Shown: positions 4,526 to 23,274 of the stretch, in pieces
Layout of the letters: every line of letters starts with the position of its first letter
How positions within the stretch are numbered: position 1 is the stretch's first letter
Source: Streptomyces sp. NBC_00490
GTDB lineage: Bacteria > Actinomycetota > Actinomycetes > Streptomycetales > Streptomycetaceae
DNA: 64,000 nucleotides
Reading direction: 5' to 3'
NCBI RefSeq assembly: GCF_036013645.1
Contig: NZ_CP107869.1
Span: 9,424,001-9,488,000, forward strand
Made by a program: the position numbers and the translations under genes
The notes under the pieces: generated by a model
Told to the model about the DNA's origin: nothing
What the model saw: the letters and a program-made list of their open reading frames with translations, nothing else
Databases searched by the model: none

Positions 4526-4625
4526 TTGCTGCCTGCCTCGGCGCCGAGCGTCACTGTGCCGTTCCACGATAGGAGCGAACAGGCCACGGGGCCCGGGGAA
4601 TGGCCCACCCGGGCCGTGTCGGCGA

Positions 4626-5336
4626 TCAGATGGTGGTGTCGTCGCCCGGCGAAGGCGGGAGGTCCGGGCGTAGGACCATCAGGGAGTTTTCGAGGGCCGC
4701 CACCATGGCGAAGGGGAAGCGGTCGAGTTCGAGACAGAGTGCGACGTCATCGGGGTGGACCCCTTGACGCACCCCTTGCGTCAGTTCGGCTGCCGCGCGG
4801 GACTCGGCGGCACGGCGGAGGAACTCGGCGGCATCCGTTCCCGCCTCGGTGGCCCTCCGGGCGATGTACTGGGCACACGCCAGATCCTCGTCGGCCTGTC
4901 CACCCTCGCCGGTGACGACGAAGGTGACGCTGTCACTCCTGCGTGTCCGCAGGAGCCGAGCCGTTGCCTCCGCCACCACGAAGCTGGCGCACAGCACCAG
5001 CGACGCGTCCTTGACCGCGAGGGCGCCGACGGTCCCCGCCGTGGTCTTCTGTACGACGGTCCGGCCGCCGAGGTCCATGGCGCGCAGCATGCCCGGCGAG
5101 TTGACGGTGTCGAAGCCGGGCGCGGGCGGACCGTCCTTGAGCGCCACCCAGTCCGGGTGGCGGGCCTTGAGGGCCAGGGCCTCGTCCAGCGACTCGGCCA
5201 GAACGATCTTCTCCGCCCCTTGGCCAAAGGCCCAGGCGGCCACGGTGAAGGCCCGCATGACGTCGACCACGACCGCCACGGACGGTGTCTCGACCAGCTC
5301 GGTGATGCCAAGAAAGTGGGCGTCCATTCGGATCAT
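4626..5336 (-). CDS. ComB-family (2-phosphosulfolactate phosphatase-like) protein
   Basis: The 236-aa product looks like the ComB family, whose founding member removes phosphate from 2-phosphosulfolactate in methanogen coenzyme M synthesis. Supporting stretches are [16 protein letters not shown] near the start and [16 protein letters not shown] and [13 protein letters not shown] in the middle. No coenzyme M gene is nearby and actinomycetes are not known to make that cofactor by this route, so the real substrate is uncertain. The start is ambiguous: ATG at 5336 (MIRMDAHF) or ATG at 5327 (MDAHF). Neither has a strong ribosome site. The gene stands alone between the phosphatase and the mannosyltransferase, both also on the minus strand. 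Confidence 0.75.
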
Positions 5337-5388
5337 GATCGAGCACGCCCGACCCGCGGCACCCGGCGAGTGACCCACATCACGCGAC

Positions 5389-7116
5389 TCAGATCCAGCT
5401 GTCGAGCCACATCCTGGCGCGCCAGTCCGCGTACGGAATCGTCTGCCCGGTGTAGGCGGGGAAGAAGTAGGCGAAGTTCCAGACGATGAGCAGCACGAGC
5501 ACACCGGCGGCCACCGCCCCCAGTGTGCGGCGCTCGCCGGTCGCTCCCGGCGGACCCAGCAGGGCTCCCAGCATCATCGTGACGGCCAGACACAGGTACG
5601 GCACGAAGGCGACCGCGTAGAAGGAGAAGATCGTGCGGTCCTGGTACAGGAACCAGGGCAGATAACCGGCACCCACCGCGCACAGGACGGCACCGGAGCG
5701 CCAGTCGCGGCGCAGCGCCCATCGGTAGAGCAGGTACACCAGGGCGCAGCACGCCGACCACCACAGCAGGGGTGTCCCCAGGGCGAGGATGGTCTGCGTG
5801 CAGTCGGTGGCTGTGCGGCAGCCTTCCGTCCCGGGTTTCGGCGACTCGTAGTGGAACAGCACCGGGCGGCCGAGGACCAGCCAACTCCAGGGGTTCGACT
5901 CGAACTTGTGAGGCGTGTGCAGCCCCACGTTGAACTGGTACACCCCGTACTCGTAGTGCCACAGGCTGCGCAGCGGAGCCGGGATCCACGACCATGTGCC
6001 GCCGCGGCCGTCCGCCCAATGGCGTCCGTAGCCGTCGTCGGACAGGAACCATCCGGTCCATGTCACCAGATACGTCACGACGGCGACCGGCACGAGGGAC
6101 AGCACCGACCGGCCGAGGTCCTTGCGCAGCACCGCGCGATACGGGTGGCGCGCCCCGGCCACACGGCGGGCCCCGACGTCCCACAGCAGGGTGAGGACCA
6201 CGAAGAAGGCGAGGAAGTACAGGCCGTTCCATTTGGTGGAGGCCGCCAGTCCCAGGCAGAGGCCGGCCGCGATCCGCCAGGGACGCGCTCCCGTTCCGGC
6301 ATGGTCGCCGGTGTGTCCGTCCGGGCGCACCCGGCCGTCCTCGGGGACGGGCAGGGCCGCCGCGAGCCGGGCCCGTGCGTGGTCCCGGTCGATGAGCAGA
6401 CAGCCGAACGCCGCCAGGACGAAGAACATGACGACGAGGTCGAGCAGAGCGGTGCGGCTCATGACGTAGTGCAGACCGTCCACCGCCATCAGCGCCCCGG
6501 CCAGGCAGCCCAGCAGCGTCGAACGGAACAGCCGGCGCCCGATGCGGCACAGCATCAGCACCGACAGCGTGCCGAGGACCGCCGTCATGAAGCGCCAGCC
6601 GAACGGGGTGAGACCGAACATCCACTCGCCGAGGGCGATCACCCACTTGCCCGTCGGCGGGTGCGCGACGAAGGACCCGGTGTCGGAGAGCGATATCACC
6701 TGGGGATGGGCCAGGATGTGCGGGTCGGCGACCTTACGGTCGGGCCAGGTGCCCTCGTAGCCCAGCCGGAGCACGGACCAGGCGTCCTTGGCGTAGTACG
6801 TCTCGTCGAACACGACCGAGCGCGGGCTGCCCAGACGCCAAAAGCGCGGCAGTCCGGAAAGGAGCGCCACCAGCAGGGGCCCGCCCCAACCCGACCAGCG
6901 GGCCAGTCGGAACGCCGCCGTGGGAGACAGCCCCAGCATGCGCCACGGCCCTGACCCGGGTTCGGGAAAGGGCACGACCAGGCGGTCGCGCACGGACGTG
7001 TGCGGGCGTCCCGTGTATCCGAAGGCGCGCAGCCTCTGCTCCCAGGAGGCCGGCCGGAGATCGGCCTGGTCGATTCGGGGCATGCCGACAGACGTGGGCG
7101 CGTTCTTGGGGAACAC
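5389..7116 (-). CDS. pmt: Polyprenyl-phosphate-mannose-protein mannosyltransferase
   Basis: Integral membrane enzyme that moves mannose from polyprenyl-phosphate-mannose to Ser/Thr of secreted proteins as they cross the membrane. The 575-aa length and about ten or eleven hydrophobic segments fit the family. After the first membrane helix come the catalytic acidic pair in [15 protein letters not shown] (D104, E105); the loop with [17 protein letters not shown] and later [11 protein letters not shown] are also typical. The GTG start at 7116 has only a distant AAGG; an internal ATG 11 codons later is possible. Likely clients include Ser/Thr/Pro-rich wall proteins such as the one encoded at 21.1-23.1 kb. 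Confidence 0.92.
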
Positions 7117-8329: not shown

Positions 8330-10204
8330 TCATGCGGCAGCCGGTGGCCGCCAAGTCGCCTCGACCAGGGCCCGTTCGGTGCCGGACAGGTAGACGGCCG
8401 CGGCGAGCCACACCCGTGCGTATCCGCCCGGATCGGCCTGCCGGGTCCGGCCGAACACGTCGCGGCCACGGCGGTCGGCTTCCGCCGCGAGCGCGTCCGC
8501 CAGGTCGGCCGCTGCCCGGAAGCCGCTACGCCGAAGGGCCGCGGTTCCTGACGCCCGGTCGCCGTCGCGTGCGGGCTCGGCGGCGGTTCGCCGGCCCCCG
8601 GAGACGGCGACCTCGACCAGTCGTCGCAGCCGCCACAGAGGTGCTTCGGCCACCGGATCCGGTGGGAACGCGGACAGGGTCTCCACCGACGGCAGTTCGT
8701 CGGCCGACGGGAAATGCGCGCCCTCGAGGCGGTCGTAGCCCAGATCGGCGTGTCCCGCCCACTCGGTCGGCAGACGCAGGGTCGCCGTGCCGTCCGGCAC
8801 AGGGCCGACCGCCAGTGGCCGCAGTGTCGCGGCGCGGGCCGGGTCGAGACGCCCGACGACGCGCAACCGCAAACCGGGCCGCGAGGCCAGTTTGCGGAAG
8901 TTGGCCGTATGCGCCAGGTCGGGGTGGCTGTTGGACGGCACCAGCCGGATCAGCAGACCCTCGCCGTCCGCTTCCTGTGCGGGCAACTCCCGGGCGAACA
9001 GCTGGTCTTCGGCCGCTCCTACGATGACCACGTCACAGCCGATGAGTTCGTCGGCCGTCTGTCCGACCTGTTCCGGCTCGCTCGTCCCGGCGCCGTTGAA
9101 CCGTGCCGCCACGGCCTCGGTCAACGGGCGGGAGAACAGCCGGGCGAGCGGGCCGGACGTCCACGACAGGCCCGTGACCGGGGTGGCGCGTACCCCCTTC
9201 CCGGCGCCGAGGCGGCCGTCCGGTGAGAGCGTCGCACCGGAGATCAGCAACCCGCCCCGGGAGAGCTGCGCGTGATCGAGGCTGCCGGAGCCGAGCGCCA
9301 CGGTGGCCGTGGCGGCACCCCGCGCCCGGGCCGGGCCACCGGGTCTGACGTCGGCCACGGAGAACCAGCGGCCCTCGTCGGACAGGACGTGCGTGACGAC
9401 CCCGCCGTAGCCGGTGGCGGAGATCACCGGCTCCCGGCACACTCCGTGGACACGCAGGCCGCCCCCCGGACGGTAGCCGCGCCGGGCCGTGCCGACCAGG
9501 GCCGGGTCGGGGTCGGACGCCGCCAACAGGCCGCTGGTGAGGAGCAGTTCACGCAGGGCGGCCACCAGGTCGGCCAGCCGGTGACCGTCGTGACGGGCGC
9601 GGGCCGCACGCAGGGCGCGCACCACCCTCAGGGCGGCCGCCTCGGGACGGTGCAGTCCCGCGAGCCGGGCCGTGTGCGCGGCCCGCAGCAACTCGGCCTG
9701 CGGTACGGCACCCGCGCCGGGCACCCCCGCGGCGAGCACAGCGGCGGCGGCGTCCCAAAGGCCTGTCGCGGCTGACACCTGGGCGTCCGTCGGTCCCACC
9801 GGCGGCGCATCCGCCGCACGGGTGTCCGGTGTCCCGGCACTTTCGTCAGGCGGGATCGTCTTGACGTCGGCCCCGTCGGACACCGGTTCCGCCGTCTCGG
9901 ACACCGTGTCCGCGTCGGCCACCGGAGCGGCGCCGAGCACGGCCGCGCGATGCAGACACCGGGGCGCGAGCAGACAGCTGCACTGCGCCTGACCGTCCTC
10001 CGTGACCGCACCGGACGGCCCGGGCGCGAGGGTGACCTCGGCGTCCTCACCGCATCGCACCCGCCGTACGGAGCCCTCGACGGTGACCGGCAGCGTCGCG
10101 CAGGTCTCGATCGCGGCGTCCAGCTTCTTGCGCAGCCGGGACGTGAGGTGTTCGACGGCGGCGGCGACCACCTCGGGTGCCACGGGGGGCAGTTCGGTGT
10201 TCAT
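8330..10204 (-). CDS. SWIM zinc-finger protein, YehQ-like
   Basis: This 624-aa cytoplasmic protein has a SWIM zinc motif near its N-terminus: C75, C77, C83 and H85 in CSCLLAPRCLH. SWIM motifs bind DNA or protein in other families. The rest is an alpha/beta region with no catalytic motif I recognise. Its ATG overlaps the stop of the VWA gene by 4 bp (ATGA), so it is the last gene of the cluster and translationally coupled. E. coli YehQ is also a SWIM protein at the end of a MoxR-VWA cluster, which is the main reason for the name. A weak 6-bp inverted repeat (8313-8330) overlaps its stop codon and could help end transcription. Confidence 0.85.
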   Translation of the reverse strand: MNTELPPVAPEVVAAAVEHLTSRLRKKLDAAIETCATLPVTVEGSVRRVRCGEDAEVTLAPGPSGAVTEDGQAQCSCLLAPRCLHRAAVLGAAPVADADTVSETAEPVSDGADVKTIPPDESAGTPDTRAADAPPVGPTDAQVSAATGLWDAAAAVLAAGVPGAGAVPQAELLRAAHTARLAGLHRPEAAALRVVRALRAARARHDGHRLADLVAALRELLLTSGLLAASDPDPALVGTARRGYRPGGGLRVHGVCREPVISATGYGGVVTHVLSDEGRWFSVADVRPGGPARARGAATATVALGSGSLDHAQLSRGGLLISGATLSPDGRLGAGKGVRATPVTGLSWTSGPLARLFSRPLTEAVAARFNGAGTSEPEQVGQTADELIGCDVVIVGAAEDQLFARELPAQEADGEGLLIRLVPSNSHPDLAHTANFRKLASRPGLRLRVVGRLDPARAATLRPLAVGPVPDGTATLRLPTEWAGHADLGYDRLEGAHFPSADELPSVETLSAFPPDPVAEAPLWRLRRLVEVAVSGGRRTAAEPARDGDRASGTAALRRSGFRAAADLADALAAEADRRGRDVFGRTRQADPGGYARVWLAAAVYLSGTERALVEATWRPPAAA

Positions 10205-13200
10205 CGGGTCTCTCCGCGGAGGCGGTCGCCCACCCAGCGGGCGAGGGCGAGGGGACTGAGGGCGGCGACCGGCATCCCGGCCGCGACGAGCTGCTGCGCC
10301 ACGGGGACCGAGTAGCGCGGGCTGCCGGAGTCGTCCAGGGCGGCGCAGCCCATCAGATGGACGCCGGAGCTCGCGAGGTCGCGTACCTCGCCGAGGAGGC
10401 CGCCGAGCGGATAGCCCTCCTCGAAGTCGCTGACCACCACCACGAGGGTGCGGCTGGGGACGGTCACCAGGGAACGTGCCTGGGCCAGTCCCGCCGCGAT
10501 GTGCGTGCCGCCGCCGACCCGCACTTCCAGGAGCAGCGACAGCGGATCGTCGACGCGCTCGGTCAGGTCGATCACCTCCGTGGAGAAGGCGAGGAAGTGC
10601 GTGCTGAGCGTGGGTACTCCGCCCAGCACGGCCGCGGTCAGCGCCGACCAGATGACGGACGCCTCCATCGACCCGGACACGTCGACCACCAGGATCAGCC
10701 GCCAGTCCGCCTCCCTGCGCGAGCGGGTGCTGAACACCGGCCGCTCCGGGACGACCAGGGTGCGGCCGTCGTCGGTCCTGCGGGTGTGGGCGAGGTTGGC
10801 CCGCAGGGTGCGCGGCAGGTCGATCCGGCCTCCGGGCCGGTGGGTCGGGCGTGGTGTGGCCAGTCCGGTCAGCGCGGGACGCAGCCGGGTGGCCAACTCC
10901 TTGGCCAGTTCGTCGACCAGACGGCGCACCAGCGGGCGCAGCCGGGCCAGTTGCTGCTCCGGCATCCCGCCGGCCAGAGACAGCACGGACGACAGCAGAT
11001 CGACCGAGGGGCGGACCGCCTTCGGGTCGAGCTCGGCCAGGACATCGCTGCGACCCTGGTCGGCGGCCCGGGCCAGCACCTCCTCACGGACGTCGGCGCC
11101 GAACAGCGCGTCGAGTTCCTCGGCCCACTCACGGGCGGTCGGGAAGGAGGCCTCCCGACCGCCGCCGGGACCGCCCTCGCGGCCGAGGTCGGCGGAGCCC
11201 TCGCCACGGCCGGTGCCGTACAACTCGTCGAGCGCGTGCGCGTAACGGCGGGCGCCCCGCGGCAGCTTGTCGCTCTCCCGGCCCAGGAGCAGTCGCCAGC
11301 GGTCGGTCGGCGTGAGGTGGAGGGCGGAGCTGCCCTGTCGTGCTTCACCGCGGGGCGCGGGCGTGTCGGGGGCCTTGTCGGTGTCCGCGGCGTTCGGGGG
11401 CGGGGTGCTGTCGGCCGGGGCGAGTGCCGTCCTCAGGGGTGGCCGGAGCGCGTCGACCGCCGCCCGGCCCGCCGCGTCCGCGGCCGTCCACAGCGCGAGG
11501 AGCTGTGGCGAGGCGCCGAGCGACAGGTCGAGCCGGTCGCCGAGGCGCTCGGTCACCGTGTCCAGCAGCCGGCCGCGGCCTGCCGGGCTGAGCGCGTCGA
11601 AGCCGCCGCGCAGGGCGGGCAGCCGGTCGAGGAACCCCTGGTCGGTGAGTGCGTCGATGCGGTCGAGGAGCGGGTCCAGCGCGGTCGGCGCCGACTGAAG
11701 GAGGGGAGCGGCCCCGCTGAGCAGACCGGTGAGGCGGCGGCTCAGCGCATGCCGCTCGTCGGGCCCGGTGGCGGTGTCGATCCAGCCCGCGGCACGGGCG
11801 CCGAGGGTGTCGGTGTCGTCGAGGTCGAGCATGACCCGGGCGGCGAGCGCGGCGCCCTGGACGAGCGGGGAGGCGGTGCGCGCGAGGTCGTCCAGCGCGC
11901 CGTCCATCCGCAGTCCGAGGCGGTGTTCGCCCGCTCGGGAGGCGAGCGCCACGAGCGCGTCCGCGTCCTGGGGGTCGTCGCTGCCCGCCAGTCCCGGCAG
12001 GGACCGTACCGCCGACTCCAGCAGTTCGGCGGCGAGTTCGGCGGCCGCCTCTCGGCTCTCAGGCGTGGTGCCGGGCAGATGGCCCCGTCGCAGCGCCTCC
12101 AACAGGTCGAGAGCGCTGAGGAGTTCGGGGAGGGTGGCGCAGGCGGGGAGCACCTCGGCGGCGTCGGCGAGCCGCTCGGCGACCAGTTCCGGCAGATCGC
12201 ACCGGGCGGCGCCGCGGAGTGCCGCCAGGACGAGGGCGCTGGTGGGCCCGCCGTCCGCCGACTCCCTGCGGAAGGTCTCCCGCAGGGTGCCTTCGGCGGC
12301 CAGCGCCGCCGTGACGCCCCGGACGCCGGCCAGATCGAGCCGGACCGGCACGGCCGGGGTCCACGACAGGCGCCACCGCGTGGTGAGCGCGGCCGCATCC
12401 CCCGTACCCGCCACCTGGACCGGCTCCCCGTACCCCGCTCCGCACACGGCGAGGCGCTGCAGCAGGATCTCGCGGCGGCCGTCGAGCGCCGAGCGCAGCG
12501 GGTCGAGCCGCAGTTCACGCCCGGCGGGATCGTCGGGTCCCGGCAGCCGCAGCGCGGCGAGCTCCGCCTCGACGGACGGGCCGAGCCCGGAGCGGGGCGT
12601 GCCCGGGGCGATGCGGCCGCGGTCGGTGCCGACCAGGACGACCTCCAGAGCCCGCGCCAGGGCCCGACCGCGCCCGAGCGGCTCACCCTGGCCCATCACG
12701 GTCGTCAGCGCCTCCAGCACCTCGCCGCGCCCGGGAGCCGACAGACCGCGCAGCCGCGCCAGGTCGCACGCCACCCGCAGCGTCTCGCGGGCCTCGCCGG
12801 TACCGGCGACGTGTCCGGCCGCCCGCAGCTCACGGCAGGCGTCGGTGATCGCCCGTGCCGCGGCCTCGTGCAGCCGCTCGGGATCGCCCCCAGCGGTGAA
12901 CACCGCCTGCTGCCAGCGCGGGTCGCGGATCCCGGCCGGATAACCGGAACGGGAGTCCAGCAGATCGAAGGCGTACGGCACGAGGGAGGTGACGACGGCC
13001 GGTTGCTCGCCCGAGGACACCGGCGCCGCAGTGGTCGGCGCCGCCCCTTCGGTCAACGCCGGTGCGTGGAAGGCTCCGACGACGGCCGCGACGCGGCGTC
13101 CGCCGGCCGTGGCGCGGCCGATCGCCTCCCGCATGTGCGCCTCGCGCGCCAGATCCACCGCGGGAACCCCGCCCGCCGACTCGGCATCGCGGCGCAGCGC

Positions 13201-13740
13201 CCAACCGACCCCGAGGGCGGCCCGGCGTACGGCCTCGGGGGCGCAGCCCGGGGCGAGGACCTCGACACTGCGGTCCCACATGTCGTCGCCGTCGCGGCCC
13301 GTGCCGGCCGCGGTGAGCGCGGCCGCGAACGCCGTGGGCGCCTCGGCCGCCGGCACACGAGAGTCCCCGGCTTCGGCGCTCCAGCGCGGGTCGGACATCG
13401 GCAGGTCGCAGCAGACGACCTCGGCGCCGCGCTCGCGTGCCCAGCGGATGGCGGCGAGTTCGGGCGAGAAGTCGGCGAAGGGGTAGAAGCCGAGCCGGTC
13501 GCCCTCGCCGGCCCCGGCCAGGGCGACCGGGGCGAGGGTGCCCGGCGCGCCGAGATGGGGCAGCCAGGGCTGGAAGTCGGTGGGCAGCTCCACGCAGACG
13601 ACGTCGGCGCCGGAGGCGTCCAGCAGGGCGGGGACGGCGGCGGCGAGCGCCGGGCTGTGGTGCCGTACGCCCAGCAGGTACGGCACCACGGAGTCGGCGA
13701 GGGCGGCGAGGGCCGCCCTCGGTTCCTGAACGAGGGTCAC
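10201..13740 (-). CDS. DUF5682-VWA fusion protein (YehM-YehP-like)
   Basis: The 1179-aa protein combines two parts. The first few hundred residues resemble DUF5682/TraB-like proteins (YLLGVRHHSPALAAAVP, then VVCVELPTDFQPWL). The last 165 residues are a von Willebrand A domain with a full metal site: DVSGS (1020-1024), the threonine of GGGTH (1079) and the aspartate of SDFEEG (about 1105). Between them lies a long helical, Leu/Ala/Arg-rich region. The start is the GTG at 13740, whose bases overlap the MoxR stop as GTGA; an ATG 24 bp upstream would lie inside the MoxR gene. In E. coli the two parts are separate genes, yehM and yehP. MIDAS proteins paired with MoxR ATPases usually act as substrate adaptors in metal or complex assembly. 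Confidence 0.85.
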   Translation of the reverse strand: MTLVQEPRAALAALADSVVPYLLGVRHHSPALAAAVPALLDASGADVVCVELPTDFQPWLPHLGAPGTLAPVALAGAGEGDRLGFYPFADFSPELAAIRWARERGAEVVCCDLPMSDPRWSAEAGDSRVPAAEAPTAFAAALTAAGTGRDGDDMWDRSVEVLAPGCAPEAVRRAALGVGWALRRDAESAGGVPAVDLAREAHMREAIGRATAGGRRVAAVVGAFHAPALTEGAAPTTAAPVSSGEQPAVVTSLVPYAFDLLDSRSGYPAGIRDPRWQQAVFTAGGDPERLHEAAARAITDACRELRAAGHVAGTGEARETLRVACDLARLRGLSAPGRGEVLEALTTVMGQGEPLGRGRALARALEVVLVGTDRGRIAPGTPRSGLGPSVEAELAALRLPGPDDPAGRELRLDPLRSALDGRREILLQRLAVCGAGYGEPVQVAGTGDAAALTTRWRLSWTPAVPVRLDLAGVRGVTAALAAEGTLRETFRRESADGGPTSALVLAALRGAARCDLPELVAERLADAAEVLPACATLPELLSALDLLEALRRGHLPGTTPESREAAAELAAELLESAVRSLPGLAGSDDPQDADALVALASRAGEHRLGLRMDGALDDLARTASPLVQGAALAARVMLDLDDTDTLGARAAGWIDTATGPDERHALSRRLTGLLSGAAPLLQSAPTALDPLLDRIDALTDQGFLDRLPALRGGFDALSPAGRGRLLDTVTERLGDRLDLSLGASPQLLALWTAADAAGRAAVDALRPPLRTALAPADSTPPPNAADTDKAPDTPAPRGEARQGSSALHLTPTDRWRLLLGRESDKLPRGARRYAHALDELYGTGRGEGSADLGREGGPGGGREASFPTAREWAEELDALFGADVREEVLARAADQGRSDVLAELDPKAVRPSVDLLSSVLSLAGGMPEQQLARLRPLVRRLVDELAKELATRLRPALTGLATPRPTHRPGGRIDLPRTLRANLAHTRRTDDGRTLVVPERPVFSTRSRREADWRLILVVDVSGSMEASVIWSALTAAVLGGVPTLSTHFLAFSTEVIDLTERVDDPLSLLLEVRVGGGTHIAAGLAQARSLVTVPSRTLVVVVSDFEEGYPLGGLLGEVRDLASSGVHLMGCAALDDSGSPRYSVPVAQQLVAAGMPVAALSPLALARWVGDRLRGETR

Positions 13741-14897
13741 CGCAGGTTCTCCCGCAGGTCCCACAGGCGGCGCCAGGTCGCCGAACCGTCCTCGGCGCGG
13801 CGGCGCACCGGGCCGTCCCAGTAGCCGAGGAGACGCGCGTGGTCGGCCGGGTCGTCCTTGCGGACCACGCCCAGCAGATGGCCGGGGACCAGGTCCAGCG
13901 AGTCGCCGCCGGGGAGGTAGGCGGCGGCGACCCCCAGGGAGACGGCGACCTGAACCGCCTCGGCGGTGGACATCACCGTCCCCGGGCGCTCCACGTCCCA
14001 GCCCTCGGCCGAGCGTCCGGCCCGCAGGTCGCGAAAGACGGTCAGCAGGACGTCGAGGACCGCGTCGTCGACGCCGAAGGCCGCGCCCGCCCGCTCGACG
14101 GCCGCCGTGGCCTGCCGTTTGACGAGGGCGGTCTCGGCCTCGACGTCGGCGATCGGGTGCACGGTCTCGAAGTTGAAGCGGCGCTTGAGCGCGGCGGACA
14201 TCTCCGACACCCCGCGGTCACGGAGGTTGGCGGTGGCGATGACGGTGAACCCGGGCGCGGCGGCGACCTGGGCGTCGTCGGTACCGGACAGTTCGGGCAC
14301 GCTCATCCGCCGGTCGGACAGGAGCGACACCAGGGCGTCCTGCACCTCGGGCAGACAGCGGGTGATCTCCTCGATACGGGCCACCCTCCCGGCGCGCATC
14401 GCGGCGAGGACCGGTGAGTCCACCAGGGCCTGCGGGGAGGGGCCCTGGGCGAGGAGGAGGGCGTAGTTCCAGCCGTAGCGCAGGGCGTCCTCGGTGGTGC
14501 CCGCGGTGCCCTGCACGGTGAGGGCGCTGGTGCCGCAGACGGCCGCCGACAGCAGCTCGGACAGCATCGACTTGGCGGTGCCCGGTTCGCCGACGAGCAG
14601 CAGTCCGCGTTCTCCGGCGAGGGTGACCACGCACCGCTCCACCAGGGCGCGTTCGCCGACGAACTTGGGGGCGATGACCAGTTCGTCCGGCAGCTCCCCG
14701 GGCGGCTCGGGCAGCTTGAGCGCCTCGCCGCCGCTGCCGCAGACGAAGGTGATCACGGCGCGGGGTGTCAGCAGCCAGCCGGGCGGACGGGGGCCGTCGT
14801 CGTGGGCGGCGAGAAAGGCGAGTTCGGTGGCGAAGCGCTCTTCGGCGGGCAGGGTCTGCCGGGCCGGGAGGGCCGACACCGTGTCGGTCAGGGGCAT
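13737..14897 (-). CDS. MoxR-type AAA+ ATPase, YehL-like
   Basis: This 386-aa protein is a single AAA+ module. The Walker A motif is GEPGTAKSML (103-112), the Walker B-like stretch is VARIEEITRC near 172-181, sensor 1 is VIATANLRDRG with N224, and arginines follow in LKRRFNFE (239-240). MoxR proteins form hexamers that remodel partner proteins together with VWA proteins. Here the VWA partner is encoded directly downstream with a 4-bp GTGA overlap, so the two are made in step. The start ATG at 14897 lies 102 bp after the stop of the 1634-aa gene, the only gap in the cluster and a possible internal promoter or leader. Confidence 0.92.
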   Translation of the reverse strand: MPLTDTVSALPARQTLPAEERFATELAFLAAHDDGPRPPGWLLTPRAVITFVCGSGGEALKLPEPPGELPDELVIAPKFVGERALVERCVVTLAGERGLLLVGEPGTAKSMLSELLSAAVCGTSALTVQGTAGTTEDALRYGWNYALLLAQGPSPQALVDSPVLAAMRAGRVARIEEITRCLPEVQDALVSLLSDRRMSVPELSGTDDAQVAAAPGFTVIATANLRDRGVSEMSAALKRRFNFETVHPIADVEAETALVKRQATAAVERAGAAFGVDDAVLDVLLTVFRDLRAGRSAEGWDVERPGTVMSTAEAVQVAVSLGVAAAYLPGGDSLDLVPGHLLGVVRKDDPADHARLLGYWDGPVRRRAEDGSATWRRLWDLRENLR

Positions 14898-14999
14898 GGA
14901 TGTCCTTGCTCGGTGGATCGGTCTGTGTCGGGGCGTGGGGGAGACAGAGGTGGGGGGATCGGAGCGCCGCCGCTCGGCGGCGCCCCGGGCCTCGTCACG

Positions 15000-17900
15000 T
15001 CAGCGGCGGCGGGCCCGCCGTACCTTCAGCTCCTCGAACCGGGGAGCGTCGCCCTCCCGCACGCGCTGCCACGCCCTGCGGTAGAGCTCCGAGGCCGGCT
15101 CGAAGGGCACGATCACGCCGAACGGCGCGTGGTCGTCGGTCACGTCGGCGAACAGCGGCAGCTTCCAGCGCTCCAGCGGCACGCGCGGCGACGACTGCGA
15201 GACCCAGCCGCCCGGCAGGAAGAGCGAGCGTCCGGCGCGGGTCCTGCTGGCCTCGACCACGAGGTCGGTGGCGGCCAGTTCGGCGCGTGCCGCCTTGAGC
15301 CGGGCCGGCTTCCAGCCCGTCCACCGGGCCGTCAGACGGTCGGTCGGGTCGGGCATGGCGAGCAGCATCAGATACAGCGTGGCGGCGTCCTCGCCGAGGC
15401 CGTACTCCTTGGCCGCCTCGGTCACCAGGTCGGGCACCGAACGGCTCGGGTCCTGCGGCCACCAGGTGCCGTCCTTGCCCCGGTCGCCCGCGAGCGGCTC
15501 CCCGGGGTCCGCGAGCAATGCCGCGAACCGCTGGTCGCGGACCAGACGCAGGGCCACTTCGGCGGTGTAGGGCCGCTGGTTGTCGACGCGCACGGCGGGC
15601 AGGTACGGGTCCTGGCCCGCCTCGTCGAGGAGAGCGACCCGCACACCCGGAGCGGGCTGGTCGTCATGGGTTGCCAGGACGACGGCGCCGTACCGTTCGA
15701 AGCCAGGGCCGGTCTCCGTGGGGGCTCCGGCGGTCTTCCGGAAGTCGGGGAGGCTGATGTAGCGCCCCAGGTCGAGCATCAGCCCGGGGTGGGCGAGGCG
15801 TTCCCGCACGGCGGTGAGGACCGGCGGCAGCGCGGCCCGCACCGGGTCGCCGGCCGGCAGCCGGTGGGCCAGCCAGGCCGTGAGACCGACCGCGCCGACC
15901 AGCGTCTCCGCCGTGAACCCGTCCGCGTCGTCACCGACGGGCCGGACCCGGTCGCCCTTGACCGCCCACTCCAGATCCCGGCTGAGCCGGGGAGAGCCGG
16001 CCGGGTCCAGCAGTTCGGGCAGCGCCCGCCGGACCGGCCAGGACGCGTGTCTGAAGGTGCGGCCCGCGTCGCCGAGCAGTTCCTCGGGCACGGCGACCCG
16101 CTTGCCGACCCTGGCGTTCCACACCGCGGCGGCCGCGGCCACGTCCGGGCCCTCGGTCCACAGCCGGGCGGGTTCGGCGGGCACGAGCGCGCCCACGACC
16201 GCGGCACGCACCGTGCCGTCGACGGCGCTCAGCTCGTCCTTGGCGACCGCCGCCGGGGCGACCTTCACCCCGATGAGGGTGCGTGCCTCGGTGCTCAGGA
16301 AGCTCCGCTCGTAGACGTCGATGCCCGGCAGACCGGCCACGATCAGCCGGGCCATCGTCTCGGTCACCCCGGTGAGGCGGGCGAACTCCTCGGCGGCCTC
16401 CGGGAACCAGGGGGCCGGTCCGCGCTCGGCCAGCTCGGCGAGGAACCTGCCCAGCCGTCCCGTGTCGGGGTCCTCGCCGAGCGGCTCCGACGTCAGCACC
16501 TTGTACGGCTGCGGCGTCTCGAACCGTCCGGACGGGTCGTGGAAGTAGCCGGTGAACGTACCGCCGTCGTCCTCCAGCAGACGGCGTCCGGTGACGGCGA
16601 GGAACGCGCCGTCGGCCAGCGGGAGCAGCCCGTTCCACGAGCCGTCGCGCCATTGGCCCGCGGAAGTGCGCAGCGGGGCCGCGGGCACGTGCAGGCTCAT
16701 CTTGCGCCAGCGGTCGGACGCGGCGGGGCCCAGCCCGAGGCGGTCGAACTCGGCGAGCAGCGTGCGCAGCACCTCGCGGTGCTCCTCGGTGGTGGTGCCG
16801 GACGCCGCGCGGTAGGCCAGTGCGGCCGCTCGATCGAGCAGCGACTCCAGGTCCGGCTGTCCGACGGGCAGCGGGTGACCGTCGAGGTGGAGCCGGACGT
16901 CCGGCCGGTCGGGCAGGGCTGTCCCGGAGAGTCCGGCGGCCCGGGCGAGGACACGCAGGGAGCGGAAGACGGTGTCGGCCTCGTCGTCGCCGTTCCACCA
17001 GTAACCCCTGGAGGTGCCGAGTCCGCTCGTCGCCGCAGAGAGGATGCTGTCCGCCGGTCCGGCGGGTCCCTCGTCCTCCAGGTCGCCTTCGAGGGCGCGG
17101 GTGAGCCGAGCGGCCGCGGCGTCCAGCACGGCCTGCTGCGCCGCGGCGTAGCGGGCGACTCCGGCGATGCCCGTCACGAGGGCTTCGTGGGTGACCGGAA
17201 GGAGGGTGCCGATCGCGTCGGGCAGCGCCTTCTTGTCGGCGCTCGCCGCGGCGGCCAGCAGCGCCGCGGCCGTGTCCCGGTCGATGTTCCGCAGCGCCTT
17301 GGACCCTTCCGGGTCGCGCGGTGTCAGGCACTCCCAGTACTGCACGGGCGGCAGCAGCAGGGTGCCCTCGCCGAAGTCGCCGGGGGCGCGGTCGGTCTTG
17401 GCCCAGGAGGTGACGGTGCCGTCCGCGTCGACCAGTTCGAGTTGCCAGTTGTTGCGGACGACGGCGGTGGCCCGCTCGGCGCCCGGGAAGACGAGGAGCG
17501 CGCTCGGATTGCCGGCCTCGGCGGGCAGGGTGACGGTGTGTCCGGCGAGGTTTTCGGCGCGCCGTGAGCCGTCGGGCAGTTCCACGACCCGCAGGCCGAC
17601 GAGGCCGCCCACGGGAGCGCAGGCCGAGGTGGGGTCGGCGGTGGGGGAGGGGCGCAGCCGGCCGCCCGCGAAGCTGCTGCCCTCGGGGGCGTCGCGCAGG
17701 GCGTCGGCCAGGAAGGCGGGGCGGCTCATGCGACCGCGCTCGTTCGTGGCCGGGTCGTACTCGTACCAGCCGTGCGCCTCGCGGTCCTCGGAGTCCGCGT
17801 GCCACACCCAGTAGGAGGAGCCGTCGAAGAGCAGCGGCCGCTCCTCGGGCAGGGTGGTGTCCCCGGCGTGCAGGACGCCGCGTCCGGTGGTCCGGCCGCC

Positions 17901-19904
17901 GTCCGGCAGGGGCAGGGTGATCGGGAAGTCGGCCCGGTACCAGTCCATCTCGGTGCCCCGGGTGGCGTGCGGTCCCTTGAGGGACTCGACGCGGTCGGCA
18001 CGGGGGTGCCAGTAGCCGCGCAGGCCGTCCTTGCGGGAGTTCCAGTAGACGAGCAGTTCGCCGTCCACGTGATGGAACCCCGGGTCGCCCGACACGTCGT
18101 TCGCGGGCAGTCGCAGGTCGTGGGTGAGCAGGGTGCCGTCGGCGCCGATGACCCGCGCCTGGGCGTTGCCGGCGACGACGAGGTGGGGCCAGGCGTCGGC
18201 GACGATGATGTCCTCGACCCGGTCCTTGGGGACCAGGGCGGCGGTCGCCTCCTCCCAGGCCGGCCAGCCCAGTTCGTCGAAGAGCCCGGCGCGCAGGGTG
18301 CGCGCCAGCACGGGTGCGAGGTCGGTGCCGACCGCGGCGCGGACGTCGTCCTCGGCCAGCGCCAGGGCCTCGGCGGGGAGCCAGCCGAGCCGGGTCAGCG
18401 CGTTGGGCAGGCCGGGCAGCCCGACCGCGGTGAACCGTCGCACGACCGTGCCGACCCACTCCGCCAGCCAGGGGCGGGCGCCGGGCGACACCGACAGCAG
18501 ACGGATGGCCCGCAGCCCCTGGTCGTTGTTGTGGAAGCGCTCCGCGCCCCGCAGGAAGGCGTCCCGGAAACGGGAGTCGGCACCGAACAGCACCAGGTCC
18601 CGCTGGCCCTCGCCCACGGCCCACGCCGTCAGCGGCAGGGCCTCGTCCTTGTCCGGGGTGGCCACCGGCACGTCCAGGGACAGCAGCAGATCGATCAGGT
18701 CGATGTCGTGCAGCACCTTCAACGCGCCGCCGGAGGCCGCGAGTTCGGCACGAAGGCCGGGCGCCATCCGCTCCACCAGCGGGTACAGCTCCGGCATCCG
18801 GGTGGAGGCGCGCCAGGAGCGGGCCCGCTCCCGGAACGTCAGGAAGCGCTCCAGCCAGCCCGCCGTGCCGTTGCCCGGGCGCTCCTCCGCGGGCAGGGAG
18901 TCGTCCCACAGCCCCGCCGTCGCGCCGGACGACTCCAGCACCTCCAGCCACATCGCGGGCATCGCGCTGTCGGCACTGGCGGGGAGCATGTCCAGGAGGA
19001 TGCCGCGCACACGTCGGTCCCGTTCGGCCAGCGCCACCAGGGCGGCATGGTGGCCCTTCCACCAGCCGGCCGCGGCACGCAGCGTCGCCGGCAGGCCGAG
19101 CAGCTCGGCCAGATAGTCCTGCTCGGCACGGTCGGCGTCCTGGTCCGCGGCACGGGCGAGCTTGCGCAGGTCGTTCGCCATCTGCGCGGACGGCGGCAGA
19201 CCGCCCGCGGTGCGGCGCAGGCACAGCCGGGTGAAGCGGCGCAGCGCCTCATCGGCCGGTACCCGGGCGGCCAGCTCCTTGCCGTACGCCGACAGCACCT
19301 TGACCGGAAGGGCTCCGGCCAGCGCGAACTCCAGGAACACCGCGTCCAGACGCTCCTCCTCCACCGTCAGCCCGTGCTCCGCCTCGGCCTTGCGGGCCCG
19401 GGTGAACAACTGGGCGGCGTAGGTGGCGTTCTCCTCGGCCAGGAACACCCGTCCTGCCTGCTCGTAGAACGTCGGCAGGAAATGCGGGACCGACGCGGCC
19501 AGCCGCTGACCGAGTTCCAGATAGGCGTCCAGGGCGGCCTTCGGACGGGACTTCGCCTGTCGAGCCGCCCGCTCCAGATCCGGTACGACCCCCAAAGCGT
19601 GGTGGCCGTCCTCGGGGTGATGCACCAGCACCCACTCGGGAAAGCCCAACGACTGACGCAGCCCCAGCCCCACGACGGCAGGCTCGCCGTCCGGCTCCAG
19701 GCCGAGGAACCCGGCGGCGAGATCCTCGGCCGTCCCGAGTTCACCGGCGACCAGCCGCACCACCACACGGTCGTCGAGGCCCGGATGGCGGTAGGCGCGC
19801 GCCGTCAGCGGCACCGCGCGCTCGCCGCCCCCCTCGGTGTCCGGCGGCAGCACCGCGCCCGCCGTCAGCAGTTCCTCGTACGACACCTGCGTCCCCCCGC
19901 TCAT
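15000..19904 (-). CDS. Large cytoplasmic protein of unknown function in the MoxR/VWA/SWIM cluster
   Basis: I do not recognise a named domain in this 1634-aa protein. It has no signal peptide or membrane segment. Residues about 100-400 look alpha-helical and repeat-like (AALDAYLELGQRLAASVPHF; TYAAQLFTRARKAEAEHG), possibly TPR-like. Residues about 550-800 contain Trp- and Tyr-rich beta segments such as YWNSRKDGLRGYWHP and SSYWVWHADSEDREAHGWYE that read like propeller blades. Its ATG overlaps the stop of the upstream DUF4132 gene by 4 bp (ATGA), tying it to the cluster. It is probably a scaffold or a sensor for the ATPase system, but that is a guess from size and context. Confidence 0.85.
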   Translation of the reverse strand: MSGGTQVSYEELLTAGAVLPPDTEGGGERAVPLTARAYRHPGLDDRVVVRLVAGELGTAEDLAAGFLGLEPDGEPAVVGLGLRQSLGFPEWVLVHHPEDGHHALGVVPDLERAARQAKSRPKAALDAYLELGQRLAASVPHFLPTFYEQAGRVFLAEENATYAAQLFTRARKAEAEHGLTVEEERLDAVFLEFALAGALPVKVLSAYGKELAARVPADEALRRFTRLCLRRTAGGLPPSAQMANDLRKLARAADQDADRAEQDYLAELLGLPATLRAAAGWWKGHHAALVALAERDRRVRGILLDMLPASADSAMPAMWLEVLESSGATAGLWDDSLPAEERPGNGTAGWLERFLTFRERARSWRASTRMPELYPLVERMAPGLRAELAASGGALKVLHDIDLIDLLLSLDVPVATPDKDEALPLTAWAVGEGQRDLVLFGADSRFRDAFLRGAERFHNNDQGLRAIRLLSVSPGARPWLAEWVGTVVRRFTAVGLPGLPNALTRLGWLPAEALALAEDDVRAAVGTDLAPVLARTLRAGLFDELGWPAWEEATAALVPKDRVEDIIVADAWPHLVVAGNAQARVIGADGTLLTHDLRLPANDVSGDPGFHHVDGELLVYWNSRKDGLRGYWHPRADRVESLKGPHATRGTEMDWYRADFPITLPLPDGGRTTGRGVLHAGDTTLPEERPLLFDGSSYWVWHADSEDREAHGWYEYDPATNERGRMSRPAFLADALRDAPEGSSFAGGRLRPSPTADPTSACAPVGGLVGLRVVELPDGSRRAENLAGHTVTLPAEAGNPSALLVFPGAERATAVVRNNWQLELVDADGTVTSWAKTDRAPGDFGEGTLLLPPVQYWECLTPRDPEGSKALRNIDRDTAAALLAAAASADKKALPDAIGTLLPVTHEALVTGIAGVARYAAAQQAVLDAAAARLTRALEGDLEDEGPAGPADSILSAATSGLGTSRGYWWNGDDEADTVFRSLRVLARAAGLSGTALPDRPDVRLHLDGHPLPVGQPDLESLLDRAAALAYRAASGTTTEEHREVLRTLLAEFDRLGLGPAASDRWRKMSLHVPAAPLRTSAGQWRDGSWNGLLPLADGAFLAVTGRRLLEDDGGTFTGYFHDPSGRFETPQPYKVLTSEPLGEDPDTGRLGRFLAELAERGPAPWFPEAAEEFARLTGVTETMARLIVAGLPGIDVYERSFLSTEARTLIGVKVAPAAVAKDELSAVDGTVRAAVVGALVPAEPARLWTEGPDVAAAAAVWNARVGKRVAVPEELLGDAGRTFRHASWPVRRALPELLDPAGSPRLSRDLEWAVKGDRVRPVGDDADGFTAETLVGAVGLTAWLAHRLPAGDPVRAALPPVLTAVRERLAHPGLMLDLGRYISLPDFRKTAGAPTETGPGFERYGAVVLATHDDQPAPGVRVALLDEAGQDPYLPAVRVDNQRPYTAEVALRLVRDQRFAALLADPGEPLAGDRGKDGTWWPQDPSRSVPDLVTEAAKEYGLGEDAATLYLMLLAMPDPTDRLTARWTGWKPARLKAARAELAATDLVVEASRTRAGRSLFLPGGWVSQSSPRVPLERWKLPLFADVTDDHAPFGVIVPFEPASELYRRAWQRVREGDAPRFEELKVRRARRR

Positions 19905-20767
19905 GCGTTCTTGCCTTCCTCGATCACGCGCCCGGCATAGAGAGCCGCGGCCATCCGCATCCCCTCGGACCAGGCCACCGGTCCCACCTCCCGCAGCGGC
20001 AGGGCACGCCCGTCCTGGTCCTGCCAGGTGAGGCTGCCGGTCTCCACCGTGTCCTCCCAGTACGGCTCACCGATCCACACGCAGGCCTCCACGGTGCGCC
20101 CGCCGTCGCGGACCCGAGCGGTGGAGTAGCCCCCGGAGACGCGGTAGCCCAGCGAACTCGCCCGAGCGGCGAGGGCGAAGCGGGAACGGAACGAGCCGCC
20201 CGTGAACTCCCGTATCTCGGTGGCCTTGGGGTCGAGGTCGTCGGGTTGCCGCCAGGTCGCCCGGTGGATCTGCTCGACGCGCTGGACAATGCCCAGCTCC
20301 GCCGCGAACTCCCGGATGTCGTCGAGGTCCGGGAGCAGCACCGGGTGCGGCAGGGTGACCGTGCGCGGCGACAGCCGTACCGTCTCGCCGTCCAGGTTCA
20401 CCACCCGCAGCTCGCCGTCCTCGGTGGCCCCCCGCAGGAATCCGACCTCCTCCGGGTCGTCGCCCACCACGGCCATGTCACGCAGCGCGGACTGCCAGGC
20501 CTCGTCCGGCCACACCCGGGCCAGCAGGCCGGTGGGCACGGGCAGCGACGACACCATCCAGGAGTCGACCTGTGCGACACATGCCGCGGCGTGCCGATCC
20601 AGCCATTCGGCGAAGCGCCGCAGCCGGTCCACCTCCGGGTGGTCGCGCAGCGCACGCGGCAGTGATTTCAACTGCCGCCCCGCCGACCGGCCCGAGGTGG
20701 CACGCGCTGCCACCCGTCCTTCCACCAGGGCGACTTCATACCCGTCACCCGCCGAGAGCCAACCCAC
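19901..20767 (-). CDS. DUF4132-domain protein (YehI/MolR-like)
   Basis: The 288-aa protein consists mainly of a DUF4132 region. Marks are the sequence GELRVVNLDGETVRLSPRTV, then LPHPVLLPDLDDIREFAAEL and IVQRVEQIHRATWRQP, as in the C-terminal half of E. coli YehI. The E. coli protein is about 1200 aa with a WGR domain; this one is far shorter and lacks WGR. The start is taken as the GTG at 20767, with GGAAGG about ten bases upstream and the typical N-terminus VGWLSAGDGYEVALVEG; the open frame runs on upstream to 20875 without a convincing start. It is the first gene of the cluster, and its stop overlaps the next start by 4 bp. Confidence 0.75.
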   Translation of the reverse strand: MGWLSAGDGYEVALVEGRVAARATSGRSAGRQLKSLPRALRDHPEVDRLRRFAEWLDRHAAACVAQVDSWMVSSLPVPTGLLARVWPDEAWQSALRDMAVVGDDPEEVGFLRGATEDGELRVVNLDGETVRLSPRTVTLPHPVLLPDLDDIREFAAELGIVQRVEQIHRATWRQPDDLDPKATEIREFTGGSFRSRFALAARASSLGYRVSGGYSTARVRDGGRTVEACVWIGEPYWEDTVETGSLTWQDQDGRALPLREVGPVAWSEGMRMAAALYAGRVIEEGKNA

Positions 20768-21099: not shown

Positions 21100-23112
21100 T
21101 CACATGTAACGGCGCCTGGTGCGGCGCAGGAGAACGAAACCGGAGATGAGCAGGACCGCTCCGGCAGCGGCCGGCCACAACTGCGTTCCGGTCTCGGCGA
21201 GACTGCCGTTGCCGCCCTGCGGAGCGGGCTGGGCATCGGCCGGAGGCTGCGCCTCGACGCCGGTCGAGTTGCTCTCGGACGCGCTCGGCGTGCTGTCGTT
21301 GCGGGGGTACGACGTCGCCTCGGGGGACTGCGTGACGGGCTTCTCGGCGGTCGAGGGCGAGGTGTACGTCTTGGGCTCGTCCTCCGCGGGTGCGGTGCTC
21401 GCGTCACCGCTCGGTGCGTCGGCGGTCGGCGTCGGCTCTTCCTGCGGCTCGTCGTCGGATCCGCCGGGCTTCTCGGAACCGTTGTCGGAACCCGACCCCG
21501 GTTCCTGGCTCGCCCCGTTGTCGGAACCGTTGTCAGAGCCGTCGTCCGAGCCGTTGCCGTTGTCGCCGCCGTTGTCACCACCGTCGCCGTTGCCGGGCTC
21601 TTCGTCCGCGCCCGCTCCGCACTGGCGGCCGTCGTTGATGCAGCCGACCATCTCCCGCATCAGGCCCTCGTCGAAGACGTTGATGAAGTCACCGTGGTCA
21701 GTGACGGGCTTGTGCAGCTGCTCCGGGAACGAGTCCACGGCGAAGAGTGGAACGGTGCGGCCGCCATCCTGCAGGCTCGGCGCGTCGACGTCGTAGACGA
21801 TGCGCTGGACCAGCTGCGGGATGGCCTGGAAACCGGCCGGGCAGGAGCCGTCGGCCTGGGCGAACGCCACATGGGTGCGGTGGTTGGCGCTGTCGATGTT
21901 GCGACCGTCCCAGCAGCTCTGGAACTTGAAGGTGCGGACCACGTCACTGCCCTGGGGACAGACCGGGTACTTGTCCTTCAACTGGCGGTCCTCGAAACCG
22001 GTGCAGCTCCAGGACGCGTTGGCGTTGGTGGTGCCGTTGACGAACGCCTTGGCGTCGCCGGTGATGATGCGCAGCAGCCGCGGCATGGCCGTGACCTTGC
22101 TGCTCGGGCTGCCGACGAAGGTGAGGGTGACGTCCTTGGGCGTGACGATCTCACCCGCGTTGCCCTCGGTGCCGCCGCCGGGAGCGCCCGCGTCCTGCTC
22201 CTGCGTGCCGTTCTGCAGACGCAGGACCGGCCAGTAGTAGGAGGACTTGTCGCCCTGGTCGACGCAGCTGGTGCCGCCGTCGGCCAGTTCGTTGTCGTCG
22301 GCGAAGGCGTTGTTGGCCTGGTTGCCGATGTAGTCGTGGAAGTGGTGGGCGCCGTTGGACACGCCGGGCGCCACGATCACGTTGTCCGAGTTGAACAGGC
22401 CGTTCGCGTTCACGCCGCAGCTCGTGGCGAAGGTGCCACGGGAGGCGTCGGCTCCGGCGTTCGGGGCCTGTGCGGCGGGCGGTGCGGTGGTGATGTCGGC
22501 GAAGTCGGCGGCGACGGGGCCGTTGCCGGACTGGCCGCCGTTGCCCTGCTGCTGGCCGCCCTGGTCCTGACCGTCCTGCTCCTGGCCGCCTTCTTGACCC
22601 TGGTCGCCCTCGCCGTTCTGGCCGTCCTGGGATCCGTCCTGCCCGTCGGCCTGGTCGTCGGACTGGCGCAGCGTGCACGCCGCCAGCTCGTCGAGGCCCT
22701 CGGGGCGCTCCCCGGCGCGTTCGAGAGCGGCGGCGATGCGCTCGATCGTCGCGGCCCGGTTCTCCGCCAGCGGATCCATGATCCCGCTCGCGGCGGCCTC
22801 GTCACCCCGCACCGCGGGGTCCTGCACCTTCTGGTACGCCTCGGCTATCTGCTGATCCAGCTGGGCGAGCTCTTTGTCGACCTCTTCCCTCGCGTCGTCC
22901 GGCACGTTCGTCAAGGTGTCGCCCACGTCGGGGCAGTCGATCGTGCCCGCCTGCCAACCACCGTCGGTCGTCTGGCTCGTGTCGGGGCTGCCTTCGGTCG
23001 CGGAGGCGTACACATTCACCGCCACCAGGCCACCACCCCCCAACATCAGAGCTACGGCTGCGAAGGTCGCACGTCGTGCACCTGTTGGGCGTCTGCGATT
23101 ACTGCGTCCCAC
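21100..23112 (-). CDS. Secreted DUF1996 protein with sortase-type wall anchor
   Basis: The 670-aa product has an N-terminal Arg-rich signal segment (ATFAAVALMLGGGGLVAVNV), a helical region, a Gln/Gly/Asp-rich linker (about 165-215), a DUF1996 domain from about residue 240 to 490 starting near GVSNGAHHFHDYIGNQ, then a long Asp/Gly/Ser/Pro/Thr-rich stalk and a C-terminal LAETG motif (638-642), a hydrophobic helix and an Arg tail. LAxTG is the motif cut by class E sortases in Streptomyces, so the protein should be joined to the cell wall. The GTG at 23112 is preferred because GGAG lies eight bases before it; the open frame continues to 23199. The Ser/Thr/Pro stalk is a plausible target for O-mannosylation. 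Confidence 0.88.
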   Translation of the reverse strand: MGRSNRRRPTGARRATFAAVALMLGGGGLVAVNVYASATEGSPDTSQTTDGGWQAGTIDCPDVGDTLTNVPDDAREEVDKELAQLDQQIAEAYQKVQDPAVRGDEAAASGIMDPLAENRAATIERIAAALERAGERPEGLDELAACTLRQSDDQADGQDGSQDGQNGEGDQGQEGGQEQDGQDQGGQQQGNGGQSGNGPVAADFADITTAPPAAQAPNAGADASRGTFATSCGVNANGLFNSDNVIVAPGVSNGAHHFHDYIGNQANNAFADDNELADGGTSCVDQGDKSSYYWPVLRLQNGTQEQDAGAPGGGTEGNAGEIVTPKDVTLTFVGSPSSKVTAMPRLLRIITGDAKAFVNGTTNANASWSCTGFEDRQLKDKYPVCPQGSDVVRTFKFQSCWDGRNIDSANHRTHVAFAQADGSCPAGFQAIPQLVQRIVYDVDAPSLQDGGRTVPLFAVDSFPEQLHKPVTDHGDFINVFDEGLMREMVGCINDGRQCGAGADEEPGNGDGGDNGGDNGNGSDDGSDNGSDNGASQEPGSGSDNGSEKPGGSDDEPQEEPTPTADAPSGDASTAPAEDEPKTYTSPSTAEKPVTQSPEATSYPRNDSTPSASESNSTGVEAQPPADAQPAPQGGNGSLAETGTQLWPAAAGAVLLISGFVLLRRTRRRYM

Positions 23113-23274
23113 GGAAGTACTCCTGCGCCTGTCGTCCGTCCCGGCATATAAAGCCCCCCGGCCCCATACGGATGGTGAGTCCCGTCTGTTCAATCGCATC
23201 GGAAACTCACAGCACTTTGACAGGTGACGGGGGCGGCGGGGATGTCGGAGGCGCCGTCGTGGTGCCTTCGCGCG

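Follow-up and report, generated by a model that had tools for sequence, protein, structure and literature searches.

Is the five-gene cluster at positions 8330-20767 of a stretch of Streptomyces sp. NBC_00490 DNA a distant copy of the Escherichia coli yeh operon, or does it encode a machine of another type? The stretch, hereafter called the window, comprises 64,000 nucleotides (positions 9,424,001 to 9,488,000, or 9.42-9.49 Mb) of the 10.57 Mb contig NZ_CP107869.1 (assembly GCF_036013645.1; whole genome 10.8 Mb). In transcription order, the genes encode a DUF4132 protein (W1), a giant protein (W2), a MoxR ATPase (W3), a DUF5682-VWA fusion (W4), and a SWIM protein (W5), as listed in Table 1. 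The reading that we favor, with a probability of roughly 45%, is that they form a third type of YehL-family MoxR/DUF5682/VWA/SWIM machine, which would act as an ATP-driven remodeller whose target is chosen by W2. At the level of sequence, the link to yeh holds for four of the genes.

Table 1. Features of the cluster, with positions in the window
Feature	Position	Strand	Basis
W1: 288-aa DUF4132 protein, YehI C-terminal domain type as a separate gene	19901..20767	-	Pfam PF13569, 1.4e-28
W2: 1634-aa protein, no yeh counterpart found	15000..19904	-	nothing above any Pfam cut-off
W2 residues about 567-839: divergent beta-propeller	17388..18206	-	structure model
W2 residues about 1505-1569: winged-helix-like C-terminal part	15198..15392	-	secondary structure of model
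102-base gap between W2 and W3, with strong GC hairpin	14898..14999	-	sequence
W3: MoxR AAA+ ATPase, YehL kind	13737..14897	-	Pfam AAA_5, 2.7e-38; 46% to YehL
W4: DUF5682 fused to CoxE-type VWA	10201..13740	-	Pfam DUF5682, 2.6e-212, and VWA_CoxE, 1.9e-65, in one chain
W4 N-terminal alpha/beta domain of DUF5682, possibly TraB/TIKI-like	13030..13692	-	inferred; GxxH...E...R...GxxH pattern
W4 VWA domain with metal ion-dependent adhesion site (MIDAS) motif (DVSGSM, GGTHI, VSDF)	10231..10896	-	Pfam and motif
W5: 624-aa SWIM-type protein, distant YehQ relative	8330..10204	-	Pfam SWIM below cut-off; hhalign 96%
W5 SWIM motif CSCLLAPRCLH	9950..9982	-	motif

Relation to yeh and to other DUF5682 loci

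In E. coli K-12 the gene order is yehI, yehK, yehL, yehM, yehP, yehQ. The yeh genes and the window share the order DUF4132-MoxR-DUF5682-VWA-SWIM, and the VWA domain is of the CoxE type in both. W3 is 46% identical to YehL (3.5e-98), and W4 aligns in a single chain with both YehM (27%, 1.6e-26) and YehP (38%, 2.2e-62), which are separate proteins in E. coli. Pairwise searches of W1 and W5 against the yeh proteins returned nothing convincing. When profiles were compared with hhalign, W5 and YehQ matched with a probability of 96% along 142 columns located outside the SWIM motif, and W1 matched residues 934-1201 of YehI at 80% with one set of relatives but at 0.6% without the divergent yeh-like locus L070. 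Pfam places the DUF4132 domain of W1 (PF13569) also at residues 954-1138 of YehI. The latter is a 1210-aa protein that ends in this domain, whereas the window has a small DUF4132 gene plus W2 instead. W2 gave no match to YehF, YehI, YehK, YehL, YehM, YehP, or YehQ (the pseudogene yehH was outside the comparison), and the idea that it is an enlarged YehI was rejected on an hhalign profile comparison of below 1%.

An earlier note on this DNA had equated the five genes with five yeh genes, and this equation fails: YehM and YehP correspond to one gene here, W2 is unmatched, and the long N-terminal part of YehI is absent. The homology on which it drew does survive for MoxR, DUF5682, and VWA by direct match, for SWIM by profile, and for DUF4132 by Pfam, but not for W2.

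Our sample of 396 genomes from across the phylum, 20 of them from the same genus as the window, holds 56 DUF5682 places in 39 genomes. Besides window-type loci, we read 17 DUF5682 places (L004 and L067-L082) chosen to span the kinds seen, and MoxR, DUF5682, and VWA occur together in all 17. Four are yeh-like, 11 belong to a SWIM-DUF5691 type, and two (L071 and L072) have the arrangement VWA-MoxR-DUF5682 with MoxR proteins of a divergent clade, where profiles detected neither a SWIM nor a DUF4132 protein. Among the yeh-like loci, L067, L068, and L069 encode a YehI-type protein, MoxR, DUF5682, VWA, and YehQ, and L070 is a weaker case. Both L067 and L068 belong to the window's own genus.

Clusters of the SWIM-DUF5691 type likewise have MoxR, DUF5682, VWA, and a SWIM protein. 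However, their SWIM protein is another one (11 of 11 loci), and DUF5691, detected in 5 of the 11, replaces DUF4132 and W2. In the two Streptomyces loci of this type that were read, the SWIM and DUF5691 genes are divergent from MoxR. Named examples come from Deinococcus, Rhizobium, and Hymenobacter, the record of the last having a fragmented annotation of DUF5682 and none of a VWA gene. A second DUF5682 locus in the window's own genome is of this type and lies about 4 kb away from a gene resembling succinyl-CoA ligase genes. Each of the 20 same-genus genomes carries a DUF5682 gene in the score class of this second locus (947-1007 bits; neighbors read in L004 and L080). Yet another order, MoxR-DUF5682-DUF4132-VWA-SWIM, is found on two rhizobial plasmids.

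In a tree of 35 MoxR sequences, the window type forms one clade that adjoins the main yeh clade (0.81) and stands apart from the SWIM-DUF5691 type; L070 is placed outside the yeh clade. One alternative is that the window simply holds a plain actinobacterial yeh operon, a single housekeeping machine in which YehI has been split and enlarged. The shared core genes, their similar order, and the YehI-type domain of W1 are consistent with this view. Nevertheless, W2 is unlike YehI, the tree separates L067 and L068 from the window type within the same genus, and an intact window-type cluster is missing from 11 of the 20 same-genus genomes. We therefore consider this explanation very unlikely. Because the genus of the window also has clusters of the yeh type, the window cluster is better viewed as a separate type, and because both the yeh and the SWIM-DUF5691 types also occur in Actinobacteria, as a third type in which the partner has been exchanged.

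Conservation and distribution of the five-gene unit

W2 was matched in 13 of the 396 genomes, including the window's own. Within the genus, 11 of the 20 genomes have W2, and nine whole clusters are present (the window, L024, L025, and L028-L033). A decayed cluster at L035 (6356-14951) has DUF4132, W2, VWA, and SWIM in pieces, with MoxR and DUF5682 not detected, and L036 (10002-15479) is a W2 relative standing alone, followed about 1.7 kb further downstream by an R2K-type ATP-grasp gene. A stand-alone 1416-aa protein at L034 (4933-9183) combines a W1-like start with parts of W2 and lacks the propeller region. In this sample, two genomes from other genera have the cluster (L026 and L027, the SWIM gene of the latter running past the contig end).

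When species genomes were scanned with an alignment of W2, at least 571 relatives were confirmed, of which 80 were kept. These represent 78 distinct loci in ten genera (Streptomyces, Kitasatospora, Wenjunlia, Streptosporangium, Nonomuraea, Acrocarpospora, Sphaerisporangium, Thermocatellispora, Actinocorallia, and Catenulispora). The counts overlap partly with those of the 396 genomes and so are not independent of them; moreover, because W2 was the query, they report the companions of W2 rather than how often those companions have W2. Among the matches listed, the nearest named W2 relative is from S. canus V4I20 (97%).

All five genes are present in one order and on one strand, with DUF5682 and VWA fused, at 59 of the 78 loci, although one component is split over two frames in each of L088 and L101. 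At another 14 loci the retrieved DNA stops within the cluster, and one of them (L122) proved complete once extended. The true exceptions number five. L090 has a shortened W4 and no SWIM gene was found there, L117 has suffered a deletion spanning W4 and SWIM, and L155 consists of W1-W2 only, in a genome without a detected MoxR of this type. L142 is a lone W2 in Streptomyces sp. BR123, whose cluster lies on another contig (L130), and L150 lacks MoxR in a genome that has a second, complete cluster (L186).

The surroundings vary far more. Flanking open reading frames (ORFs) of at least 150 aa, compared by blastp (E 1e-15, identity >35%), are shared in 91 of the 1711 pairs among the 59 complete loci, and the commonest recurs at 7 of the 59, within flanks covering about 8.6 kb upstream and, in many cases, no more than 2-3 kb downstream. 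The conservation of content and order that the earlier note proposed is supported, and sequence comparison indicates that the cluster is a five-gene unit kept together at varying sites.

Some of these sites are on plasmids. Five Streptomyces plasmid records include a MoxR match of 83-84%; for carriage by phages, there was one record, with a MoxR match of 42%. The two linear plasmids examined each carry a complete cluster with a transposase gene close by, and RefSeq names the products on both as DUF4132 protein, DNA-binding protein (W2), AAA ATPase, DUF5682 protein, and hypothetical protein. The operon of Actinocorallia populi (L184/L185) contains four W2 genes in tandem and an additional copy of W1; the C-terminal ends of two of the W2 copies are 97% identical. 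An apparent loss of DUF5682 in this cluster was an artefact of composition correction by BLAST, as a profile and uncorrected BLAST both find the part in one open frame.

It is possible that the window cluster has a role in conflict or defense, with W2 detecting damaged DNA or an invader, upon which the machine would unleash a DUF5682 hydrolase activity. The scattered distribution, the decay seen at L035, the plasmids, and the copied and diverged W2 genes would fit such a role, as would a yeh-type cluster on an Iodobacter plasmid (L166), which has two DUF4132 genes and lies near a type I restriction-modification gene. Sections of PMC7159879 also propose other three-part MoxR-vWA systems as conflict systems. 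However, PADLOC gave a single match, no better than chance (E 0.051), and we consider an anti-phage or conflict system, in this specific form, rather unlikely. Regarding the third-type machine that we favor, our view is that it is an accessory stress or conflict machine rather than a housekeeping one, because the accessory distribution, decay, plasmids, and W2 copies suit such a role. A Deinococcus operon with a DUF4132 gene is described, in part of PMC8533742, as strongly upregulated upon depletion of the repressor DdrO.

Components and a possible mechanism

W3 has recognizable Walker A, sensor, and arginine motifs (GEPGTAKS, ATANLRD, and ALKRRF). A Walker B pattern search matched neither W3 nor YehL, and an EE pair (ARIEEI) is visible by eye in W3. 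The bpMoxR model of Pfam, which represents the MoxR of the beta-propeller ternary systems discussed below, scores 20.6 bits, below its 27-bit cut-off. YehL is listed as one of seven MoxR subfamilies in a portion of PMC3893208. The solved relatives of W3 include NorQ, which ranks behind midasin. A MoxR/VWA pair is naturally interpreted as a remodeller, and by analogy W3 would drive W4. Specifically, a MoxR hexamer would grip the VWA domain at the C-terminal end of the W4 chain and twist it with ATP, as NorQ does with NorD, and the force would pass to the attached DUF5682 part.

In the N-terminal domain of DUF5682, the pattern residues are H35, E59, R207, and H233 (1187-aa numbering). Among 28 sequences, G32 is nearly invariant, and H35, E59, R207, and G230-H233 are invariant. 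The TraB equivalents are G38-H41, E67, R228, and G249-H252 (seven sequences, some of them close kin), and so GxxH, E, R, and GxxH are found in matching order in both families, in a pattern picked by eye. We took the TraB sequences from E. coli and plasmid records because 149 actinobacterial genomes gave one match. The Pfam TraB model is below cut-off on DUF5682 (best E 0.063, in 5 of the 28 members), and ChaN, a haem-binding family, is weakly matched in 2 of the 28. The domain is possibly a TraB/TIKI-like one of hydrolase type. In sequence searches against solved structures, whole DUF5682 gave no match, and the TraB profile gave five chance-level rows with no TraB protein among them. The N-terminal part gave 16 rows, the best being designed pentatricopeptide repeat proteins (E 6e-8, summed across many repeats over a low-information stretch), which we discarded as chance.

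These same parts might instead serve in the maturation of a metalloenzyme, with MoxR and VWA inserting a metal or cofactor as NorQD do, and the TraB/ChaN-like domain handling metal or haem. The VWA is of CoxE type, and coxE mutants of Oligotropha are reportedly affected in assembly of the CO dehydrogenase metal site (PMC4240915). NorQ among the solved relatives of W3 and the weak ChaN matches point the same way, and NorQD provide a precedent, as passages of PMC13036017 and PMC9976466 describe remodelling of a NorD linker required for metal insertion. NorQ and NorD also consist of a MoxR ring and a VWA partner. According to those passages, though, NorD has a mass of about 70 kDa and a different domain at its N-terminus, and its target enzyme is known. 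No constant enzyme gene appears in the flanks compared above, in which downstream DNA was covered short and unlinked targets fell outside the test. The NorQD and CoxDE systems are also not known to include a giant variable partner or a SWIM protein. A role in metalloenzyme maturation, which is the chief rival of a different kind to a stress or conflict role, is unlikely in our estimation.

W2 is a giant partner protein unlike any found in the yeh cluster, and it offers a handle on the role of the family. The structure model, which leaves out residues 1-540, suggests the propeller, and we read the C-terminal part of the model as winged-helix-like. Conservation of W2 peaks at residues 1521-1560 (0.88, the top block), and the middle part is strongly variable among relatives. 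AlkZ is a winged-helix family, and an AlkZ-like match occurs in 2 of 29 W2 relatives (best 1.1e-4) and not in the window's own W2. Searching W2 by sequence against solved structures gave four rows, all at chance level, and the VIA-align match lists for the W2 and DUF5682 models are filled by single domains (helical repeats and propellers). MoxR, VWA, and a propeller in one operon are also features of the MoxR-vWA-beta-propeller ternary systems (Kaur and others 2020). Parts of PMC7159879 describe the propeller of those systems as a C-terminal fusion to the VWA, whereas in the window it belongs to the separate W2 protein. In the main text of that article, DUF5682, SWIM, DUF4132, and Yeh do not occur.

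W5 matches the Pfam SWIM model at 0.004 (17.1 bits, under the 19.6 cut-off). Its residues C75, C77, C83, and H85 are invariant across 10 aligned sequences, and it has one CxC...CxH motif, compared with two in YehQ.

Considering these components together, it seems reasonable to speculate that W1 and W2 would fill the partner slot taken by YehI or DUF5691 in the other types. Since W2 varies in its middle part and is copied, it is likely the target-choosing part and may select a target via the propeller and the variable middle, while its winged-helix-like end would bring the target to nucleic acid or sense it there. The DUF5682 N-terminal domain might then act as a TraB/TIKI-type hydrolase, with helical repeats holding the partner, and the SWIM protein perhaps helps at the nucleic acid. 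Weighing against W2 as the chooser is the fact that the SWIM protein is about as variable, the two being the least conserved components of the cluster.

A broader proposal is that the whole YehL family is a modular ATP-driven machine in which a constant engine, made up of MoxR, VWA, SWIM, and a DUF5682 bearing a TraB/TIKI-type hydrolase domain, works with an interchangeable subunit that selects the target, be it YehI, DUF5691, or the actinobacterial DUF4132/W2 pair. In this view, gene copying and recombination diversify W2, as with the recognition parts of bacterial immune or conflict systems. This proposal is tentative and somewhat doubtful, slightly more so because the SWIM protein is nearly as variable as W2. 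Still, the comparison tells the constant engine apart from the interchangeable partner, provides for DUF5682 a fold that can be tested together with candidate residues of an active site, and locates where variation concentrates, and these make the function of a machine found from E. coli to Streptomyces testable. In the open-licence literature, with subscription journals mostly outside it, we found no study of YehL cluster function and no mention of DUF5682; three papers mention DUF4132, among them the Deinococcus study cited above, and the six that name at least two of yehL, yehM, yehP, yehQ, and yehI are genome reports and chance matches, as judged by listing.

Junctions and neighboring genes

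The ORFs all lie on one strand, as the earlier note had stated, and this is the minus strand. Its start for W1 (GTG at 20767, giving 288 aa) is preferred over a longer ORF reaching 20875, because the match to relatives begins at residue 31-37 of that longer frame in 9 of 10 complete loci. Its claim that four genes are joined by overlaps required correction. There are three 4-base overlaps, namely ATGA at W1/W2, GTGA at MoxR/DUF5682 (provided that W4 starts at 13740), and ATGA at VWA/SWIM, and W2 and MoxR are separated by a gap. Among the 59 complete relatives, an in-frame NTGA overlap occurs at W1/W2 in 57, at MoxR/DUF5682 in 59, at VWA/SWIM in 56, and at W2/MoxR in one. From this regularity across diverged loci, and without a null model, we judge that the recurrence at three junctions exceeds chance. 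A conserved hairpin in the gap, serving as an attenuator between W2 and MoxR, was not secured: stems of at least 10 pairs occur at 27 of 59 loci versus 12 of 59 at a control site, and no stem occurs at 20 versus 19 of 59.

Upstream of the cluster, the window encodes a 699-aa protein with DUF1996 (21100-23199). The downstream genes (3293-7116) encode a protein mannosyltransferase-like protein, a 2-phosphosulpholactate-phosphatase-like protein, and a PAS-SpoIIE protein.

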